Translations under genes and position numbers: made by a program | Source: Alphaproteobacteria bacterium | Lineage (GTDB): Bacteria > Pseudomonadota > Alphaproteobacteria > Puniceispirillales > Puniceispirillaceae | Direction of reading: 5' to 3' | NCBI GenBank assembly: GCA_016780775.1 | Contig: JADHLI010000020.1 | Location: 1-34,413 of the forward strand | Length of the DNA stretch: 34,413 nt | The notes under the pieces: generated by a model | Told to the model about the DNA's origin: nothing | The model's input: the letters and a program-made list of their open reading frames with translations, nothing else | Databases searched by the model: none | Shown here: positions 1,895-10,581 of the stretch, in pieces | Layout: every line of letters begins with the position of its first letter | Position numbering within the stretch: the stretch's first letter is position 1

Positions 1895-4216
1895 TTAAAT
1901 CGCTTCTTTATATAGGTTTTTCTGAAACTCTATGAATGTCCGCTGAATTTCTTGCGGTGTTCCTAGTTTAAGCTGTGCTGCATGGATGCTTCCGTACTTG
2001 GCAGTTAACACTGTACTTAATTTGCTGACATCTAGCTCATCAACGCCAACATCCACATAGTTCCGCAATACATACTCAACAAAGTCACGTTGTGCGGCAT
2101 TCAGTAGGTTGTAGATATTGTCTTTGTTTGTTTCCACTCGTGCAGCACGCGAGACAGGTGATTTAGCGTACGCAATATATTCCAACACATCAAATAAATC
2201 GCTGTCTTGTGCTTCTATGAGTTCCTGCAGCTTTTCCAAATCATCCCTGTGACAGCCTGCATCCTCTAACTTTTTCAGTAATTCCCTGCGTGTCATTGGA
2301 TTTGCCCATAGTTCACGCAAACGTTCTTCACTTTCCAGCAATTCTGGTAATTTGAGAACATCAAATAGACGTTTGAGAAATTCTTCAGCACTGATTGGTT
2401 TGCCGTCTACATAGAAATAGGTGCTGCTCATACTTTGCAGCTCACGCACTTTTCCGTCGCTGAGCTTGATTTTAAGTTTGGTTTTTGGGGGATCATCTTC
2501 ACCACCACCGCCTGTGTCACCACCACCAGTGTCTCCGCCCCCCCCGCCAGTGCCGCCACCTTCACCGCCTTCTGGTTCAACAGGCTCACCATCCCATTCA
2601 GCGTCATTGAACATGTGATAGGCATTCACAAAATCAATAATTGTGAAGTAGTGCTTGCCCTCAAATAACCGTGTGCCACGCCCAATGATTTGTTTGAACT
2701 CAATCATGCTGTTCACAGGGCGCATCAACACGATATTGCGAACGTTGCGGGCATCGACACCCGTTGTAAGCTTTTGGCTGGTAGTTAGAATTGTAGGTAT
2801 CGTTTTGTCATTGTCTTTGAACTGGTTCAGATAGGTATCACCAATCGCTCCATCATTTGCTGTCACACGCACACAGTAATCAACGCTTGGGCTATCTGCT
2901 GTCTGATTGATTAAATCACGTATCATCCCTGCGTGGGCTTGGTTGGCGCAAAACACCAATGTCTTTTCATTTGGATTGATGGCGGCAAGCATGTCTTCCA
3001 CACGCTTCTTCTCACGCTCTCTTATGACAATTGTCTTGTTGAAATCCTTTTCCGTGTAGACGTGCCCTTCATCCACTTCACCTTCAATCACTTCATCGTC
3101 AGGCGTATAGATATATTCATCAATCGTTGTTTGGATGCGTTTGACTTTGAATGGGGTAAGAAAGCCATCTTGTATGCCTTCTTTAAGGCTGTAGGTGAAA
3201 ACAGGCTCGCCAAAATAGGCGTATGTATCCGCGTTATCTTTACGTTTTGGGGTTGCTGTGAGCCCCAAATGCACAGCACCAGAAAAGTAATTGAGAATAT
3301 CACGCCAGCTGCTTTCATCATTAGCACCACCTCTGTGGCACTCATCAATGATGATTAAATCAAAGAAGTCTGGTTCATATTCACCAAAATAAGGTTCGCC
3401 ATCTTTGCCACTCATAAAGCTCTGAAAGATGGTGAAAAAGACACTACCATTTTTGGGGACTTCACCACGTTTGGCGATGTCATTGGGTGTAATGCGAACC
3501 AGTGCCGCATCATCAAATGCGCCAAAATCCAAATAGGCTTGGTTCGCTAGAATGTTTCTATCTGCGAGGAATAAGATGCGAGGCTGCCGCTTGCCGTCAC
3601 GCTGTAGTGTCCAGCGGCTTTTAAACAGCTTCCATGCTATTTGGAATGCAATGAAGGTTTTGCCAGTTCCTGTGGCAAGCGTAAGTAAAACACGTTGCTT
3701 TTCTTCTGCTATCGCCTGAACGGCGTTACTGACGGCAAGTTGTTGATAATAGCGGGGTTGTCTCGTACCGTTGAAATCTTCAAACGGCACATTGCTAAAC
3801 TTATCTAGCCATTCATTGCCGCTGCCATAAACACGCTGCCACAGCTCCTCTGGTGACGGGAAAGCGTCAACTTCGCCTTCTACGCCATTTGCGTGGTTGA
3901 TTTCATAGATGGCTTTACCGTTCGCAGCAAAGCTGGTTTGCAGGCGAAGTTTTTCTGCATACAACTTAGCTTGTGCAACACCCTCAGACACATCCAACTC
4001 ATTGCTTTTAGCTTCAACAACAGCGAGCTTGGTATTTTTGTACTCAAGTATGTAGTCAGCTTTAAGCTGTCCTGTACGGATTCCGCTTGAACGGATTTCA
4101 CCAGCATTGATGTTGTATTCACGCCATACCCGCACACCTGTGTCAGCACTCGTAAACCAACCAGCGGCTTCAAGCTGTTTGTCTATGTATTGTGCACGGG
4201 TATCAGCTTCGTTCAT
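1895..4216 (-). CDS. hsdR: Type I restriction enzyme, R (endonuclease/translocase) subunit
   Basis: This 773-aa protein cleaves DNA after ATP-driven translocation in complex with HsdM and HsdS. The N-terminal nuclease has D54 and E68-A-K70 of a PD-(D/E)xK site. The SF2 motor shows ATGTGKT at 181-187 (Walker A), IIDECHRGG near 290, GLTATPKR near 318 and the motif VI region QIIGRGTRLFEGK. The length and C-terminal region fit the EcoEI-like branch. Between the motor and the C-terminal domain (about residues 547-573) is an extreme glycine linker of G, E, D and T whose coding strand contains a run of eight G (2538-2545). The gene is last in the operon and overlaps hsdS by 4 bases (ATGA), implying translational coupling. 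The reading frame is intact in this sequence. Confidence 0.95.
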   Translation of the reverse strand: MNEADTRAQYIDKQLEAAGWFTSADTGVRVWREYNINAGEIRSSGIRTGQLKADYILEYKNTKLAVVEAKSNELDVSEGVAQAKLYAEKLRLQTSFAANGKAIYEINHANGVEGEVDAFPSPEELWQRVYGSGNEWLDKFSNVPFEDFNGTRQPRYYQQLAVSNAVQAIAEEKQRVLLTLATGTGKTFIAFQIAWKLFKSRWTLQRDGKRQPRILFLADRNILANQAYLDFGAFDDAALVRITPNDIAKRGEVPKNGSVFFTIFQSFMSGKDGEPYFGEYEPDFFDLIIIDECHRGGANDESSWRDILNYFSGAVHLGLTATPKRKDNADTYAYFGEPVFTYSLKEGIQDGFLTPFKVKRIQTTIDEYIYTPDDEVIEGEVDEGHVYTEKDFNKTIVIREREKKRVEDMLAAINPNEKTLVFCANQAHAGMIRDLINQTADSPSVDYCVRVTANDGAIGDTYLNQFKDNDKTIPTILTTSQKLTTGVDARNVRNIVLMRPVNSMIEFKQIIGRGTRLFEGKHYFTIIDFVNAYHMFNDAEWDGEPVEPEGGEGGGTGGGGGDTGGGDTGGGGEDDPPKTKLKIKLSDGKVRELQSMSSTYFYVDGKPISAEEFLKRLFDVLKLPELLESEERLRELWANPMTRRELLKKLEDAGCHRDDLEKLQELIEAQDSDLFDVLEYIAYAKSPVSRAARVETNKDNIYNLLNAAQRDFVEYVLRNYVDVGVDELDVSKLSTVLTAKYGSIHAAQLKLGTPQEIQRTFIEFQKNLYKEAI
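2538..2545 (-). repeat. Homopolymeric G8 tract inside hsdR
   Basis: There are eight consecutive C on the plus strand (G on the coding strand) within the glycine-linker codons. The surrounding 2500-2575 is a simple GGN/ACN-type repeat. Tracts of this kind are prone to slipped-strand indels, which here would truncate HsdR after the motor domain. The tract is long enough to be suspicious, but slippage is not demonstrated. Confidence 0.6.
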
Positions 4217-5391
4217 GCTGCCTCACTTTGTAATTCTTGTGCGAGAATTGATGATTTTAATTTTTCTAGTTCTGAAAGCTTCTTTGTTTCTATAGTTCGA
4301 ATATTTTGAAACTGAATTTCTGTTTCTTTAAGTGTTTGGGAATAGGTGAGTTGCTTATCGATTGGAATGTTAGGAACTGGAAGTTTCTTTAAATCTGTTA
4401 TTGATAGATTTGGCTGCATTAGTGTGTTTACGTTGGAGAGCACGTAATCAAGCACCATTGATGAACTTAAGTATGAGTATAAAAATTCGCTATTCATCAG
4501 TTTTGGATTTGCTGACACACTAGCAACGCGCTGGTTCAAAAGTGCTCCTTCGTAATTTTTAGGTACAACGGCAACCTTTAAGCCGCCATTGATAACAGTA
4601 CGTGTTAGTGCGAAGACGATGTCACCCTGTTTGACTGCAAATTGTTTGTGTTTTGCTAAGAAATCCTTTGGGAGATTTACATCGTTTGTTTCAACAAAAT
4701 CCCTAATACCTACATTGGTAATTTTAATTACAGGTACCCCATTCGAATGCTGAAAATCACCACTTTTAAAGGCGTATCCATTTATTATTTCACTAGTTTT
4801 TTCTAATTCAATTAGTGAAGATGACAGATTGCTGAAGAAACTGCTTTTATTAGTTTCTTCCAATTTGAAATAGTTTTGTATCTTTATCTTTGTTGCGTGA
4901 ATAGCCTCATCAATCTCATCAAAGGCGGCATCAAGTTTGGCTACGATGCGTTGCTGCTCTGCGAGTGGTGGGAGCGGGACATCAAAGTCATAAATATCAT
5001 CTTTGCTAAAACCATTCTGAGCAGAGCGGCTTGAAACCTCCATTAGTGGTTTCTGAAACAGAGGTGATGTAAGGTACGCCTGAAGCCAACCTTTTGATAT
5101 AAGTTCTTCATTGGGAATGGTTTTCATTAGTGCAACATTATAGGCGCCTGATAAGCCGCTTAGTATCTGCCCCACAGATGCACCATATCTACCTATCAAA
5201 ATGTCAGTTTCTGAGCATAATCTATTTTTTTTTGCGGTTGGTATGTAGGTAATATTTTTGTCAGATTTAAAATCTCGTATTTGAAGAAACCTCACATAAC
5301 CATCTGCAGGCTCATAAACAAATTCCTTTTTGGGAGGTTGGCTGCCTCCTTCAAATTTGCATATTTCCCCAAGCTTCACCGTTTTCCACAT
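4213..5391 (-). CDS. hsdS: Type I restriction-modification specificity subunit
   Basis: The 392-aa subunit determines the bipartite DNA target recognised by the methylase and the restriction complex. It has two target-recognition domains: TRD1 starts MWKTVKLGEICKFEGG and covers about 1-140, and TRD2 starts near SEIINGYAFKSGDF and covers about 195-335. Each is followed by a helical spacer. The central spacer has the family hallmark LPPLAEQQRIVAKLDAAFDE; the C-terminal one has ETKKLSELEKLKSSIL. The gene overlaps hsdM by one base (TAATG) and hsdR by four, so all three are translated from one message. The target sequence cannot be read from the protein. Confidence 0.95.
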   Translation of the reverse strand: MWKTVKLGEICKFEGGSQPPKKEFVYEPADGYVRFLQIRDFKSDKNITYIPTAKKNRLCSETDILIGRYGASVGQILSGLSGAYNVALMKTIPNEELISKGWLQAYLTSPLFQKPLMEVSSRSAQNGFSKDDIYDFDVPLPPLAEQQRIVAKLDAAFDEIDEAIHATKIKIQNYFKLEETNKSSFFSNLSSSLIELEKTSEIINGYAFKSGDFQHSNGVPVIKITNVGIRDFVETNDVNLPKDFLAKHKQFAVKQGDIVFALTRTVINGGLKVAVVPKNYEGALLNQRVASVSANPKLMNSEFLYSYLSSSMVLDYVLSNVNTLMQPNLSITDLKKLPVPNIPIDKQLTYSQTLKETEIQFQNIRTIETKKLSELEKLKSSILAQELQSEAA

Positions 5392-6845
5392 TACAGCAAC
5401 TCCTTAATCGCCTGTAATGCTTGAGCAGCTTGAGTATCTAGTTCCTCAATCTCAGCAATAATTTCTGCTGGAGTACGGTTATCTGTTTCTTCAACACGAT
5501 TAGGGTTGTTAACTGTCAAATCCCATGTGTCTGTGTTGATGTCTGCAACATCCACAAGCCAGCTATTGTCGCTGAGTTCCTGCGTTTTAGACATCTCAAC
5601 AAATTCAGCCAAATCCTTTTCATTCAGCGGATTTGTCTTACCCATGTTTCTGCCAACATTTAGCTGGTAATACCAAACTTTATCAGTTGGCTTGCCCTTC
5701 TCAAAGAACAGAACAACTGTTTTGACGCCAGTGCCAATAAATGCCCCACCTGGCAAATCTAGCACAGCAAACAAATTACATTCCTCTAATAACTGCTTGC
5801 GAAGGGCGATGCTGGCGTTGTCTGTATTGCTGAGAAACGTGTTCTTAATAACTACGCCGCAACGCCCACCACTTTTTAGAATTTTGATGAAATGCTGTAG
5901 GAATAGATATGCTGTTTCACTGGTTTTGATTGGGAAGTTTTGCTGAATTTCTGCTCGCTCTTTACCGCCAAATGGCGGATTAGCAAGAACCACATCAACT
6001 CTGTCTTTTTGCTGAATGTCAGTAATGTTCTCAGCCAATGTGTTGCTGTGAACGATATTGGGTGCCTCAACCCCGTGCAGTATCATGTTCATAATACCAA
6101 TCACGTACGCTAACGACTTTTTCTCTTTGCCAATAAAAGTATTGTTTTGCAGTTGTTCGTAATCAGCTGCACTTAGCTCACCTTGTCCGCGCATCCATGC
6201 GTAAGCCTCACAAAGAAAGCCAGCACTGCCAACTGCACCATCATAAACAGTCTCGCCAATTTGCGGATTAGTGACTTTCACAATGCTTTTGATTAGCGGG
6301 CGTGGTGTATAGTATTCGCCGCCATTACGCCCTGCGTTACCCATATTTTTGATTTTATCTTCGTAAAGGCTGCTGAGCTCGTGTTTGTCCTCATTGCTTA
6401 GGAACTTTAGCTCATCCACCTTGTTGATTACGTCACGTAGAGCGTACCCACTTTGAAGCTTGTTACGAACCTCACCAAATATCTCACCTATTTTGTAGTT
6501 GAGGCTACGAGGGTTTTCAGCAGTTTGTTTGAAGCTGGCTAGATGTGGGAACAGCTTGAAATTCACAAAATCCCGCAAGTCATCGCCAGTCATTGCGGTA
6601 TTGTAATCTAGCGTACCATCAGCTCGCTTTGGCGCTGCCCATTCAGCCCAACGAAATTCGCCATCAATGATACGATTGTAGCTTTCACCGTTGAGAAGTG
6701 CCGCTGTTTCTTTATCAGCCTCAAAGTCATCCAAGTATTTGAGAAACAGTATCCAGCTGGTTTGCTCAATGTAATCAAGCTCGCTGCTACATCCAGCGTC
6801 TTTCCATAGAGTATCGTCAATATTTTTGAATGCTGCTTCGTACAT
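5391..6845 (-). CDS. hsdM: Type I restriction-modification DNA methyltransferase subunit
   Basis: This 484-aa N6-adenine methyltransferase subunit modifies the HsdS-defined site using S-adenosylmethionine. It has an N-terminal HsdM helical domain (SWILFLKYLDDFE), then GEYYTPRPLIKSIV, a SAM-binding motif DGAVGSAGFL (a variant of DPAxGTGGFL) near residue 205 and the catalytic NPPF motif (VVLANPPFGG) near 290. ATG 6843-6845 starts the gene, preceded by a GGTGG ribosome-binding site that lies inside an inverted repeat (6848-6913). It is first in the hsdM-hsdS-hsdR operon. A possible promoter (TTGCCT, 16 bp, TAATAC on the minus strand) lies in the 79-base gap after the serine recombinase. Confidence 0.95.
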   Translation of the reverse strand: MYEAAFKNIDDTLWKDAGCSSELDYIEQTSWILFLKYLDDFEADKETAALLNGESYNRIIDGEFRWAEWAAPKRADGTLDYNTAMTGDDLRDFVNFKLFPHLASFKQTAENPRSLNYKIGEIFGEVRNKLQSGYALRDVINKVDELKFLSNEDKHELSSLYEDKIKNMGNAGRNGGEYYTPRPLIKSIVKVTNPQIGETVYDGAVGSAGFLCEAYAWMRGQGELSAADYEQLQNNTFIGKEKKSLAYVIGIMNMILHGVEAPNIVHSNTLAENITDIQQKDRVDVVLANPPFGGKERAEIQQNFPIKTSETAYLFLQHFIKILKSGGRCGVVIKNTFLSNTDNASIALRKQLLEECNLFAVLDLPGGAFIGTGVKTVVLFFEKGKPTDKVWYYQLNVGRNMGKTNPLNEKDLAEFVEMSKTQELSDNSWLVDVADINTDTWDLTVNNPNRVEETDNRTPAEIIAEIEELDTQAAQALQAIKELL

Positions 6846-6924: not shown

Positions 6925-7485
6925 CTAGGCTGCCACGTCAGTTTGTTTTTTGAGAGCGCGATGAACAGTCATCCTGCTTATGTTCAGATATTCAGCAATC
7001 TCTGTATTGTTCAATCCGTCAGCTTTCAGTTCAGAAATTCGCTTTTCACTTACCTTTTTGCTGCGCTTCCTATTTTCATAAACACCTTTTGCTTTTGCTT
7101 TGGCTATGCCTTCTGCCTGCCTTTTACGAATGATGTTTCGTTCAAACTCTGCAAAAGCCCCCATCATTTGTAGCTGTAGCTTGGCAAAAGCGTCATCACT
7201 GCTGCCGCTGAAGGTGAGGCGTTCACTAAGAAATTCAATTGAAACCCCTTTGTCGTTCAATTGGGTGATGATGCTTTGTAAATCACGTAAATCTCTTGCA
7301 AGTCTATCAATGCTGTAAACAACAACCTCATCACCACTGCGAACGTAACTCATCATCTCTAAGAGTTCAGTTCTGTCCGTGTCTTTGCCGCTGGCTTTAT
7401 CTTCAAAGACACGTTCAACGATGCCCAAGTCTTGTCTGTCCAAGTTTTGCTCTATCGTGCTTACCCGTCTGTATCCAACACGCAT
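6925..7485 (-). CDS. Serine recombinase of the resolvase/invertase family
   Basis: This 186-aa enzyme makes double-strand exchanges through a serine nucleophile. The catalytic domain starts MRVGYRRVST, with Ser9 as the nucleophile, and carries SIDRLARDL with R61 and R64. Next comes the long E helix (MGAFAEFERNIIRKRQAEGI), then a C-terminal helix-turn-helix (about 140-182, GLNNTEIAEYLNISRMTV), the Tn3-resolvase/Hin layout and length. ATG at 7483-7485 is chosen because CAGGAG lies six bases upstream; a start at 7527 would add 14 residues before the conserved N-terminus. It is divergent from the gene at 7700, across a repeat-rich 214-base region that may hold its sites. Its target (resolution, inversion or island dimers) is unknown. 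Confidence 0.92.
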   Translation of the reverse strand: MRVGYRRVSTIEQNLDRQDLGIVERVFEDKASGKDTDRTELLEMMSYVRSGDEVVVYSIDRLARDLRDLQSIITQLNDKGVSIEFLSERLTFSGSSDDAFAKLQLQMMGAFAEFERNIIRKRQAEGIAKAKAKGVYENRKRSKKVSEKRISELKADGLNNTEIAEYLNISRMTVHRALKKQTDVAA

Positions 7486-7491
7486 CGCGTT

Positions 7492-7620
7492 CTCCTGTGT
7501 AACATATAAGTCTAAACTTAATGCCACCTAGTCAGAAGAGCAACCAAAAGGCGAATAGAAAGCTGAAAATCTGTAACAGGCTGAGCTGTAACAGCTGAGT
7601 ACACTTAAATGTTACAGGAG
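7492..7620. promoter_or_regulatory. Four-copy CTGTAACA control region between divergent genes
   Basis: CTCCTGTGTAACAT (7492-7505) is mirrored by ATGTTACAGGAG (7609-7620), a 12-bp inverted match apart from a two-base insertion. Between them CTGTAACAG occurs twice in tandem (7571-7579 and 7586-7594), each followed by CTGAG with one extra G in the first. Clustered copies of a short motif upstream of a serine recombinase are typical of resolution sites or autoregulatory operators. The 7492-7505 copy also overlaps the recombinase ribosome-binding site, which favours self-repression. Confidence 0.5.
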
Positions 7621-7699
7621 TAAAAAACGCCGTTTTTAGGTGTTTCTGCTGTATTTGTAGCGAAAGAGATAAATAAAAATATAAGCAGGAATACAACTT

Positions 7700-8047
7700 A
7701 TGAGAAAACAGATAAAAGAAATGCGCGTTGGCAACATAGATGTGGAGAACGCGACACTTGCTAAACGACAACGGTGGGCGGAACTGCAGGCTAAAGACGT
7801 TGAAAAAATTTATGCTGACATCCAATCAAAACTTAAACAGATACCAAAAGACCAATGGACTGCTTGGGATGTTGAGAGCCTAAATCGAATTGAAGCTATA
7901 CTGGGTGACAGGCGAGCAGATGAAATTAGAAATGATATTGAAAGAATAATGACACTTGCTGGGCTATCATACGGGCTTGAGAGAGCGAGTCATTACAAGA
8001 AACATGAAATGCTGAAAAAGTTGAGAGACGAAGGAGAGGAAACATAA
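7700..8047 (+). CDS. Hypothetical island protein (115 aa)
   Basis: I do not recognise this family. It begins MRKQIKEMRVGNIDVEN, has an N-terminal charged helical stretch, a WTAWDVESLNRIEAILGDRR segment in the middle, and ends in a lysine/glutamate-rich helix. No signal peptide, membrane segment or cysteine cluster is visible. ATG is preceded by AGGAA at good spacing. The gene is divergent from the serine recombinase and shares its control region. It stands just upstream of the hairpin-dense non-coding stretch, so both could be on one transcript. Confidence 0.7.
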   Translation: MRKQIKEMRVGNIDVENATLAKRQRWAELQAKDVEKIYADIQSKLKQIPKDQWTAWDVESLNRIEAILGDRRADEIRNDIERIMTLAGLSYGLERASHYKKHEMLKKLRDEGEET

Positions 8048-8050
8048 GAA

Positions 8051-8735
8051 CAACACAGTGTCGTCAGCGACACCCTTTCAAACGAGACATAAGGTTAGCA
8101 CGCCAGCCGTTATTGTGCTGAGAACCCGTTCTGCTGTGAGACGGTAATCAATTGAACTGCTCGTTGTTCGCTTCAACAGACTACCGCATCCTCGTAGGTG
8201 CGATGCCTAAATGGTGTACTGCGTAATCACCGTTTCTGTTGTCGTAATGGTTGTAAGTCTAAAGGCTGTGAATACGGAGACAGGACTGAACGATGCTCTA
8301 ATATCAACAGATTTATTCGTTATGTGTTTAGGGAAATACATAGCGTCTTCGGCTAAAGTGAGAGGGAGACAACACTTGGTAACAAGTAACCCTCAAAGCA
8401 CTCAACAGGTGATACCCACAGATATCGTTGAGGCTTGCGTGGTGACACACTGAAAATGGGATGATAGCAAAACCTGCCCAGTCAGTTATGGCGTGTGTTT
8501 ATGTGGATGGCTGACACTTATATGGAAGTGCTTGGTTATACTGACGCCCAAAGTGGGCGTTGGTATGGCTTCTCCTAACTGGATGATGGCGACCTACACA
8601 AAGCAAGAATCCACCATAAAAAAGTTAATTAATAAAAGTGAATACAAGAAAGAATTCCAACAAGTGAGGTGAGTGCTTTGCGAAGTAAAGTATGAACATC
8701 ACGTAGTTGGATGATTACTGCGAAGCAGTAAGCAA
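8051..8735 (+). ncRNA. Candidate large structured RNA, hairpin-dense and without a convincing gene
   Basis: About 700 bases between two small genes hold no convincing coding frame but many perfect or near-perfect hairpins. Examples: GTGTCG/CGACAC with a 4-nt loop (8058-8073); GGTTAGCAC/GTGCT..AACC (8093-8126); GAGGG/CCCTC (8362-8394) enclosing ACTTG-GTAA-CAAGT, a GNRA tetraloop; AAGC-CTCAAC/GTTGAG-GCTT (8396-8436); GTCAG/CTGAC (8481-8515); ACGCCC/GGGCGT (8544-8560); TTACTGC-GAA-GCAGTAA (8715-8731). The block looks richer in G+C than the neighbouring island genes, as expected for a folded RNA in AT-rich DNA. Size and hairpin density recall the large mobile-element RNA classes (GOLLD, ROOL), but I cannot match it to one. 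Strand is assumed from the flanking genes. A decayed gene is the alternative. Confidence 0.4.
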
Positions 8736-8762
8736 AACACTAAACACAAAGGATAACAAACA

Positions 8763-9155
8763 ATGACATTTACTGAGCAAACTTACGAAAAACTAAGCAC
8801 CATTACAAATTTAAGCACAGATGAGTTTAGCATGGATTGGCTGGGGCAAAGCAGAAGCTATTACTCATCAAACAAAGCAAGAGGGCTTGAAGCAAGTATT
8901 TCTGCACTTGTAAAATTGATGAATAAACTCACAGACCAAACGAAGGCATTAGAAACGGGAACTAGTCATCCATTACTACTCAACACCGCAAAACAATACC
9001 AACAACTTGCTAATGATGTAGCTACAGAAGTCGCTTATCGTTCAATGAAGACAAGTCTTGCTAATCAAACAGTAAAAGAGATGCTGTATAAAATTGTTTC
9101 GCAAATGAATGATAAAAAGTATCCAGCAAGTCCAGCAATCGTTTTAGGTTTTTAG
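8763..9155 (+). CDS. Small hypothetical protein, possibly DUF6626-like
   Basis: The 130-aa protein begins MTFTEQTYEKL and has the segment FSMDWLGQSRSYYSSNKARG followed by ISALVKLMNKL. That pattern reminds me of the small alphaproteobacterial DUF6626 family, which looks like a helix-turn-helix-type fold; this is from memory and uncertain. The remainder is helical and polar, with no membrane segment. AAGGAT about 12 bases upstream of ATG is the probable ribosome-binding site. The gene follows the structured non-coding block on the same strand, and its ribosome-binding site lies just after the 8715-8731 hairpin, which could influence its expression. It is convergent with the next gene. Confidence 0.72.
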   Translation: MTFTEQTYEKLSTITNLSTDEFSMDWLGQSRSYYSSNKARGLEASISALVKLMNKLTDQTKALETGTSHPLLLNTAKQYQQLANDVATEVAYRSMKTSLANQTVKEMLYKIVSQMNDKKYPASPAIVLGF

Positions 9156-9215
9156 TATTTACTTACTTAGAAAAGCTGATCTTGCTCTCGCTGGCGTTCA
9201 AATAATCCGTTCAGT

Positions 9216-9638
9216 TCACTCTACTATGTAATCGTGTACCCAGTACCCATAGTCTTCCAATACTTCAAATATTAATTCCTCGTCTTCCAAATCCTCAGCA
9301 ACGATGTCTTTCGGGTGATCCGCAGATTTAGACATAATGTTTATAATATTACTTAGGTTCCCATTTATCTCCTTGTTAGAGAAATCGAAAAAGTGAGTCT
9401 CTAAATTAATATTACTGGCATCCGTAACGTCTTTTAATCTTGCGGAATGTTCCCGTAGTTTATTGATTGCTTGATCAATAGCTTCATAGCAATTTTGAAT
9501 TGCACTATTGTCTGCAAGCAGCCAATCACGTTGAAGTCCCTGCTTCACATTATCAATTTCTGATACGAGTTTTCTGCAATAGTTTTCCAATTCGTTACCA
9601 ACCATTTGGGCTTCAGTGGGTTCAATTTTGTATTTCAT
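9216..9638 (-). CDS. Small acidic helical protein with WXG100-like spacing
   Basis: The start is ATG 9636-9638, preceded by GGAG at seven bases; an in-frame start at 9686 lacks this. The 140-aa product has a helix about 8-36, a turn with RDWLLADN (Trp39), a second helix about 46-72 rich in heptad leucine/isoleucine, and an acidic tail (AEDLEDEELIFEVLEDYG). Two helices joined by a W-containing turn is the layout of WXG100/ESAT-6-type proteins, but the exact WXG triplet is absent and no secretion genes are nearby. Family assignment is therefore only a suggestion. The gene is divergent from the 9772 gene. Confidence 0.68.
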   Translation of the reverse strand: MKYKIEPTEAQMVGNELENYCRKLVSEIDNVKQGLQRDWLLADNSAIQNCYEAIDQAINKLREHSARLKDVTDASNINLETHFFDFSNKEINGNLSNIINIMSKSADHPKDIVAEDLEDEELIFEVLEDYGYWVHDYIVE

Positions 9639-9771
9639 AATATTCTCCGTTAAGTTTTTTATTTGAGACTTCCTTTTCAATCTCACTCATTAAATATGCC
9701 ATATTTTTGTATTAATTTTCGAATAGAATTAAAGTAGTATTTAAACTGTCTACATTATTGCAGGATTTTGC

Positions 9772-10581
9772 ATGAACCCTCGTCGTTTCAAATTTGCTCC
9801 ACCCCGTTTTACTCAACGAAAAAGTAAACGTAGATTGCCAAGTGGAGGCATGTATTTGGAGGAAGACGAGGACAAATACAAAGCGAGTGTTTACTACTGG
9901 TGGTATGAGTACTTGCGCAGAAGTGATGAATATAGAAAGTGTTGTGAGCGTGGAGGTAGGGGCAAGCTTGCAAAGCTATATGAGGACTTTGGAAATGTGT
10001 TTGCTGAAGCAGATACAGAGAAGGAAGCATTTAGAGTTTGGTGGCGTGGACATGCACACTTGTTTTGGGAGCAAGAAGGCAGGAAAGTTGACGAGATAAA
10101 CAAGGTGAATGACTTAGAAGAAACTGACTTAGTTGTAAGGCTGCCTCTTAACGAAACTGCAAATTACATTGTGAAACATGTACGACGTTTGCTTATGGAA
10201 AAGAGTGAACAAGTTAGACGTGCACGTGAGCACAGTAGAGCTGTGTACCCAGTTGCCACAAAAGTGCGTATGACAACTCTGCAAACGCAATTGCATGTCT
10301 ATGACGTTCACATTGCTAATCCTAATATGAAGCTACATGAGCTTGCTGATGAAGCAGGTTTAAGTGTTAACAAGCAAGTAAACTATTACGATGAGGATGG
10401 TGAGCTTGCAGGTACGCAGACTGTAGAGTGGCTTTTACGAAATGGATTTGAGGTAGATGCTAAAGAGGGCAAAGCTGTTGTTAAGCGTAGAAAACGGCAA
10501 ATAGCCAGACAGCATTTGGAAGCGGCTAAAGAGTATATTTCGAATGTACAACTTGGTAAGTTTCCATTACGTAAAAGATAA
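9772..10581 (+). CDS. Hypothetical island protein with Trp/Tyr-rich N-terminal domain
   Basis: The 269-aa protein starts MNPRRFKFAPPRFTQRK, a strongly basic N-terminus. It continues with an aromatic-rich region (YYWWYEYLRRSDEYRK near 41-57 and FRVWWRGHAHLFWEQE near 87-102), a central basic helical part, then a possible DNA-binding helix-turn-helix (MKLHELADEAGLSVNK, about 186-201) and a basic tail. The WWYEYLRRS pattern resembles a hypothetical family I associate with genomic islands, but I know no function. The basic ends and the HTH-like segment suggest DNA binding. It is the last gene before attR, separated by 154 AT-rich bases that hold the distal arm-site candidate. Confidence 0.78.
   Translation: MNPRRFKFAPPRFTQRKSKRRLPSGGMYLEEDEDKYKASVYYWWYEYLRRSDEYRKCCERGGRGKLAKLYEDFGNVFAEADTEKEAFRVWWRGHAHLFWEQEGRKVDEINKVNDLEETDLVVRLPLNETANYIVKHVRRLLMEKSEQVRRAREHSRAVYPVATKVRMTTLQTQLHVYDVHIANPNMKLHELADEAGLSVNKQVNYYDEDGELAGTQTVEWLLRNGFEVDAKEGKAVVKRRKRQIARQHLEAAKEYISNVQLGKFPLRKR

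Follow-up and report, generated by a model that had tools for sequence, protein, structure and literature searches.

The window is the whole 34,413-nucleotide stretch of contig JADHLI010000020.1, from an alphaproteobacterium of the Puniceispirillaceae. It carries an island with a tyrosine integrase (276–1580, + strand; PF00589, E = 6.6e-8) and a serine resolvase (6925–7527, − strand; PF00239, E = 3.1e-35). Open reading frames at 1895–6845 on the − strand resemble a type I restriction-modification set (R, S, and M; by eye). The block under study, 8051–8735, lies between two + strand reading frames. The upstream frame (7700–8047) is small, has no Pfam family over cut-off, and is directly 5′ of the RNA described below on the same strand. 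The downstream frame (8763–9155) encodes a DUF6626 protein (Pfam PF20331, E = 1.5e-11) and is followed by a 156-aa − strand reading frame with no Pfam family over cut-off (9216–9686) and then by the YWWW protein common to the islands (9772–10581, + strand), which has no Pfam match at E ≤ 1. A strong hairpin (GTGTCG..CGACAC, 8057–8074) sits directly 3′ of the upstream frame and outside the conserved RNA; it is terminator-like on the − strand, a count of 1 site versus 1.2 expected.

The original prediction was that this block lacks a credible coding frame, is richer in G+C than its flanking genes, and may be an undescribed large structured RNA. The first two claims held: the longest stop-free run in the window RNA is 80 codons, a length reached by 33% of shuffles, and the G+C fraction of 8051–8735 is 0.444, compared to 0.411 for the upstream and 0.369 for the downstream frame. 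The four hairpins given with coordinates are all present. The first, at 8362–8394, has a GTAA loop in agreement with the claimed GNRA loop; those predicted at 8396–8436 and 8544–8560 are placed here at 8401–8432 and 8543–8561; and the fourth is found at 8715–8731 as predicted. Hairpin density alone is weak evidence because the fold energy is only modestly better than that of shuffled sequences (z = −2.5 on the + strand and −1.4 on the − strand; for either strand, 1 of 20 shuffles gave an equally good fold). Covariation among relatives lifts the structure of the block above chance.

Relatives were collected by blastn and by pattern searches. The block matched one other genome of the 101 searched by blastn, G013, where a finer comparison located two conserved segments next to a DUF6626 gene, and it had no blastn match in any of the 7 other genomes of the window's genus. 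The pattern GATGATAGCAAAACCTGC occurs in four IMG/VR contigs, namely three near-identical phage contigs (L016, L017, and L019) in which the remainder of the RNA is present as well, and a chance match, L018. Further IMG/VR patterns from a three-way comparison returned 16 loci (L021 and L029 by chance), 18 loci, and 14 loci. A pattern search of bacterial genomes returned 12 loci, and the genuine ones (L041, L046, and L047) are labeled as a Sphingomonadales, a Methylococcaceae, and a Yoonia MAG, respectively. Besides L018, L021, and L029, the loci dropped as chance pattern matches were L042–L045, L048–L052, L062, L064, and L066, along with 30 of 31 and 31 of 31 loci in two further pattern searches.

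A covariance model of 165 positions and 19 pairs, termed R1, was built from 17 sequences. R1 gives 84–132 bits for 19 members and no more than 14.2 bits for the remainder of the 42 loci. Seventeen of the 19 members built the model, so they match by construction. Copies that were not used in R1 comprise 6 further bacterial copies (79–122 bits), L116 (96 bits), and 10 viral contigs (31–103 bits); the best chance scores are 14.2 bits among the 42 loci and 10.0 bits among other DUF6626 loci. The 20.6 bits of L057 indicate that the family shades into divergent forms. R1 matches 25 viral contigs in IMG/VR at E < 0.001 (14 + 10 + 1), some of them near-identical to each other, and eight near-duplicate viral contigs (L017, L019, L025–L027, L035, L037, and L040) were left unscored. 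Bacterial copies number 11 in nine genomes: the window genome, G013, G489 (L041), G490 (L046), G491 (two copies, one being L047), G780, G561, G608 (two copies), and G667. Such copies are infrequent: R1 matches just two genomes, the window genome and G013, among 385 in the class, and five among 295 in the family to which G491 belongs. No GenBank phage record was found by blastn with eight family members as queries, and no plasmid was found by blastn with two. The family spans integrative islands in Alpha- and Gammaproteobacteria as well as IMG/VR viral contigs; those contigs whose genes were examined belong to tailed phages.

The conserved part of the block is an RNA of subtype A encoded at approximately 8086–8575 on the + strand, on the evidence of MAFFT alignment and pair counts. 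It is 490 nt long in the window, and the remaining 11 sequences of alignment A7 range from 389 to 440 nt. The 3′ tail (8576–8735, + strand), including the hairpin at 8715–8731, is not shown to belong to the RNA; no clear conservation is seen at 8576–8640 in two alignments, and 8641–8735 lies outside the alignments. Loops of the GCGAAGC type occur 3′ of the RNA in several relatives too (by eye).

Base pairing was counted on A7, a MAFFT alignment of 12 sequences that was not fitted to the model. A7 consists of subtype A, window included, together with L060 and L058, and leaves out the G561 copy (its 3′ half is unalignable), the second G491 copy, and subtypes B and C. The 3′ ends were set at one alignment column for nine sequences and were chosen by hand for L060 and L058. 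The counted structure has 38 pairs in eight helices. It derives from the 45-pair consensus that RNAalifold gives for A7 itself, with 7 pairs removed: the four of a GGTT/AACC helix, a single isolated pair, and a terminal pair from each of P1 and E. In A7, 92.9% of cells pair compared to 75.6% after shuffling, and two-sided changes occur in 24 of 38 pairs compared to 13.8, a result reached in 0 of 500 shuffles. Alignment A1 (MAFFT, 17 sequences) has 93.8% of cells paired compared to 77.3% shuffled, two-sided changes in 12 of 19 pairs, and a covariation score of 0.496 compared to 0.161 (0 of 500 shuffles); slid versions of its helices reach at most 44%, a comparison that favors the A1 helices because they were chosen after inspecting the alignment. 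The model-fitted alignment A4 (25 sequences) has a covariation score of 0.550 compared to 0.163. Relatedness among the sequences inflates these covariation counts, and R-scape was not applied. In eight sequences outside R1, helix Pb is 100% paired in the model-fitted alignment.

All elements of the RNA are on the + strand. Helix P1 (GCAC/GTGC, 8098–8118) lies within the 5′ signature AAGGTTnGCACGCC, which served as a search pattern, and is 100% paired in 12 sequences; three of its four pairs are invariant and the remaining one is A-U, G-C, or G-U. In a pattern test of P1, loci with the intact GCAC/GTGC signature match the model in 11 of 14 cases (10 at E < 0.001 and L057 at 0.014), compared to 1 of 31 with compensated GCGC/GCGC (L116) and 0 of 31 with a broken helix, and the lone match cannot separate the latter two. 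Helix Pa (CCGT/ACGG, 8126–8144) has two-sided changes at 3 of 4 pairs in A1 and 4 of 4 in A4; it is absent from the A7 consensus, and G491, G608 (contig 3), and G667 differ at this site. Hairpin P2 (TGAAC/GTTCG, 8153–8170) has 94.8% of cells paired and two-sided changes at 3 of 5 pairs in A7. Helix Pb (8174–8241), formed by CAACAGA (8174–8180) and TCTGTTG (8235–8241), closes a multibranch domain and has two-sided changes at every pair; pairing is 100% for six pairs in both A1 (17 sequences) and A4 (25 sequences), and 98.8% for seven pairs in the 12 sequences of A7. Within this domain, hairpin Pc (8185–8202) lies 5′ of the conserved GATGCCTnAAATG and is 94.4% paired with two-sided changes at 5 of 6 pairs (A7); its loop is UUCG in L022 and GUAA in L024 (by eye). 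The evidence is weaker for hairpin Pd (AAATGGTG/CACCGTTT, 8209–8235), which has 87.3% (A1) and 89.7% (A4) of cells paired, is partly invariant with its last pair mostly broken, and is absent from the A7 consensus.

The 3′ portion begins with helix Pg (GAGGG/CCCTC, 8362–8394), which has an inner GNRA-capped hairpin and is the nested hairpin of the original prediction. A perfect 5-bp Pg helix forms in 12 of 12 sequences with 10 distinct arms, compared to a shuffled mean of 1.58 and a maximum of 7 in 5000 shuffles. Helix Ph (CTCAAC/GTTGAG, 8401–8432) is suggestive only; a perfect 6-bp helix forms in 6 of 12 sequences, and shuffles (mean 0.99, maximum 6 in 5000) equal this count. Element D (8460–8478) is the conserved GATGATAGCAAAACCTGCC of the A7 alignment, which also served as a search pattern. 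The terminal hairpin E (GACGCCC/GGGCGTT, 8543–8561) has 83.1% of cells paired and two-sided changes at 5 of 7 pairs in A7.

The alternative that the block is protein-coding was examined by comparing the window RNA with 11 relatives. In each relative, between two of five and all of the indels in the 5′ domain are not multiples of three and break the frame, and no open reading frame common to the relatives was found. Counter-evidence comes from G491, whose reverse strand stays open for 123 codons, a length reached by 0.5% of shuffles; this open stretch is absent from the other sequences. The frame-breaking indels and the absence of a common open frame reject the protein-coding reading, and homologs that align as a protein, which would have refuted the original prediction, were not seen among the relatives. 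There is very little doubt that a noncoding, structured RNA family exists and is encoded at 8086–8575 of the window.

P1, Pb, and the sequence surrounding them are common to the family, and the 3′ part splits into subtypes (by eye). Some viral forms have altered versions of Pc and Pd. Subtype A contains the window RNA, other bacterial copies, and the L016 group, and has AAAGTGA, element D, and terminal hairpin E; L055, L058, L060, and L116 are near it. Subtype B (L020, L056, and others) and subtype C (T4-like L022, L028, and others) have the 5′ domain in common and differ downstream; these assignments were all made by eye. The G561 copy (L090) keeps the 5′ domain with a 3′ half that cannot be aligned with other copies, DUF6626 was not found in its genome, and this copy is probably a remnant.

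Rfam 15 contains no relevant family matching at E ≤ 5 in nine sources (window positions 7500–9200, L002, L016, L020, L022–L024, L028, and L031). The matches in these sources are unrelated and below gathering scores, with two in the 7500–9200 segment, and the only match in the window at gathering scores is one tRNA at its far end. Rfam includes models of ROOL, OLE, HEARO, and the phi29 pRNA. GOLLD, to which the original prediction had likened the block along with ROOL, is a large ornate RNA of phages and prophages that has one conserved and one variable half and no known function (PMC12286853). The present RNA is alike in being a large phage RNA of unknown function with one half conserved and the other variable. 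However, the 3′ region of GOLLD is conserved and its 5′ region less so, whereas here the 5′ domain is shared and the 3′ part varies (subtyping by eye), and many GOLLD members exceed 800 nt compared to 389–490 nt for the A7 sequences. The GOLLD model (RF02032; gathering score 150 bits) matched none of eight RNA-bearing viral records at E ≤ 10 and nothing in the window, and this threshold is loose, with 5 of 14 control genomes giving matches below cut-off. Identity with GOLLD is rejected on the lack of an RF02032 match and the opposite domain conservation. ROOL, a large structured RNA that phages and prophages carry and whose function is unknown (PMC12286853), is alike in its phage setting and unknown function and differs in that no Rfam match appeared at E ≤ 5 in the nine sources. 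OLE (PMC12286853) and HEARO are large ornate RNAs that have a linked gene or protein partners; both resemble the present RNA in this respect and differ in that the linked gene here is DUF6626 and there is no Rfam match. No description of an RNA of this kind was found in the titles and abstract openings of the open-access literature searched, which does not show that it is unpublished. The RNA is likely a separate family of a known sort, the large ornate RNAs of mobile elements, that matches no relevant Rfam 15 family. With relatives, covarying stems, and no relevant Rfam match, the claim of an undescribed large structured RNA held, the transcript being untested; the likeness to GOLLD and ROOL held for setting and size class and not for GOLLD membership, and ROOL was without an Rfam match.

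In bacteria, the RNA is associated with DUF6626: for 8 of the 11 copies, a gene for this protein is no more than 510 bp away from the model match. A cis-regulatory leader, or long 5′ untranslated region of the next gene, DUF6626 in the window, would place the RNA upstream of that gene on the same strand, as observed in the window and in both G608 copies, and in G667 at a distance of 3.9 kb. Against this reading, DUF6626 is divergent from the RNA in G013, G489, G491 (two copies), and G780, and the following gene varies among phage lineages, making a cis leader very unlikely. No DUF6626 gene was found in genomes G490 and G561. The link is also one-sided: of the five DUF6626 genes in G491 only two adjoin the RNA, and of the four in G780 only one; there is no R1 match at the DUF6626 loci of six other genomes, and whole genomes G249, G196, and G300 have no R1 match. 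DUF6626 was not found in the viral contigs, where one peptide pattern only was used. The AlphaFold2 model of DUF6626, made with 10 sequences, is all-helical (pLDDT 90.8). Fold searches of two libraries gave no match at E ≤ 0.001; weak matches at E 1–4 include HTH/XRE-type proteins (P22 c2 repressor, GraA, and HigA) among unrelated helical proteins. No paper on DUF6626 was found in the open-access literature searched.

Several DUF6626 loci have features of their own. On contig 16 of G491 (L084, L085), three DUF6626 genes are spaced by about 15 kb (792639, 807801, and 822549) and RNA copies adjoin the last two, an arrangement that could be a tandem array of islands. The 1.5-Mb genome G300 (L009, L011–L015) has six DUF6626-domain genes, two of which follow a resolvase-like gene (by eye), and no detectable RNA copy. 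Noncoding gaps of about 600–700 nt adjoin DUF6626 in L003 (1800–2480) and L005 (890–1470) and have GAGCGA-type hairpins like those 3′ of the RNA elsewhere (by eye). The best R1 score at these two loci is 10.0 bits (E 0.84, filters off), and it is possible that the gaps hold a divergent or different RNA.

Phage satellites carry an integrase and a gene set common to other islands, and a helper phage mobilizes or packages them. Among 11 island loci, two of them on one contig, the shared clusters are tyrosine recombinases (10 loci), the YWWW protein (9), DUF6626 (8), a DUF6641-like protein (6), a 270-aa protein (5), an AAA ATPase (5), and the resolvase (3). The window island contributes members to the recombinase, YWWW, DUF6626, and resolvase clusters and none to the AAA, DUF6641-like, and 270-aa clusters; it meets the satellite trait of an integrase plus island-shared genes (Pfam for integrase and resolvase, and the clusters). 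An anti-phage role would have the island RNA mimic the phage RNA and titrate its partner in defense or competition. The occurrence of subtype A in islands and in phage contigs L016, L017, and L019 is consistent with this idea, as are the type I restriction-like reading frames of the window island (by eye). On the other hand, whole-length conservation fits mimicry and shared function alike and there are no functional data, and this inferred role is considered unlikely.

In the phages that were checked, the RNA neighbors packaging, neck, tail, or SbcC-like genes; a PHROGs scan covered ten proteins, two of them without known function, and gene order in other contigs was read by eye. A packaging RNA with a role like that of the phi29 pRNA in the DNA-packaging motor, used by islands for their own packaging, is suggested by several of these positions. 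TerS is directly downstream of the RNA and TerL 2.4 kb downstream in L016, in L023 and L034 TerL follows the RNA at a distance of about 3.5 kb, and a TerS-like reading frame lies about 2.5 kb downstream in L038 (by eye). In T4-like L028, MazG, a head-tail adaptor, and a tail sheath surround the RNA, which precedes the adaptor and sheath. Three observations count against this role. In L058, the RNA follows an SbcC-like gene and not packaging genes. The L028 neck protein has relatives in 58 GenBank phage records (12 of them at 36–38% identity), and two of these phages, PA5oct and XaC1, keep the neck-sheath order without room for the RNA because the neck gene is only 35 and 55 bases, respectively, from the preceding gene. 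The phi29 packaging RNA, which is alike in a possible role near packaging genes, differs in its length of 174 nt and in having no Rfam match here. A packaging RNA is regarded as unlikely.

An intron-like element or other ribozyme was considered on the basis of GACTA and GATATAGTC motifs in some phage copies (by eye), which we take to be reminiscent of group I P7. The two motifs do not covary (L022 pairs GACTA with TAGAC), there is no Rfam intron match, and the RNA is located between genes. The group I intron reading is rejected on these grounds and a ribozyme element of any kind is all but excluded.

Signals for transcription are indirect. Terminator-like hairpins with T-runs just upstream of the RNA in L056, L059, L061, L063, L065, and L068 (by eye) suggest that the RNA forms its own transcription unit. 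The T4 late-promoter sequence TATAAATA (≤ 1 mismatch) occurs within 110 nt upstream in 10 of 26 sequences compared to 2.5 expected, which is only a hint given the partial redundancy of the set and the differing distances of the sites. The gap between DUF6626 and the RNA in G013, G489, and G491 holds GATAAATA, which faces TATTTATC in G489 and G491 (by eye); these elements could mark a divergent promoter, an inference from sequence alone. In the window there is no promoter-like site 5′ of the RNA on the + strand (3 sites in the region compared to 3.1 expected), and thus the RNA may be processed out of a longer transcript.

The explanation we favor, by a modest margin, is a trans-acting ornate RNA of phages that is also borne by islands; its transcription and function are inferred. 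Action in trans is proposed because the neighbors vary (TerS, MazG with a head-tail adaptor, SbcC-like, and DUF6626), as does the strand relative to DUF6626. The RNA would be made during phage or island activity and would act as an RNA, or an RNA-protein particle, that folds independently. It may be homo-oligomeric, by analogy only with GOLLD and ROOL, for which homo-oligomeric RNA nanocages are characteristic. It may help virion production or take over a host factor, and islands would hold a copy because they depend on phages or interfere with them. For DUF6626, which is small, helical, and weakly HTH-like at its N-terminus, two alternative roles are proposed: binding of the RNA, or control of the promoter region that separates the two genes. 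Against this explanation, transcript evidence is lacking, the DUF6626 link is one-sided, and the window has no + strand promoter-like site.

A bolder reading is that the family represents a novel ornate RNA class, separate in origin from neither more nor less than known families such as GOLLD and ROOL but independent of both, that forms a multimeric RNA or RNA-protein particle in infection by uncultivated tailed phages, and that islands captured the RNA and DUF6626 to exploit or block those phages. Taken jointly, these proposals are more likely to fail than to hold. GOLLD, ROOL, and OLE are three ornate large RNAs that were recently solved and have poorly understood functions (PMC12286853). 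A further family with strong covariation, a link to a protein gene in bacteria, and copies in both phages and islands would provide an independent handle on ornate RNA function, and R1 is a marker for a group of islands and uncultivated phages. Should any carrier genome come from a cultured strain, the RNA could be deleted there.
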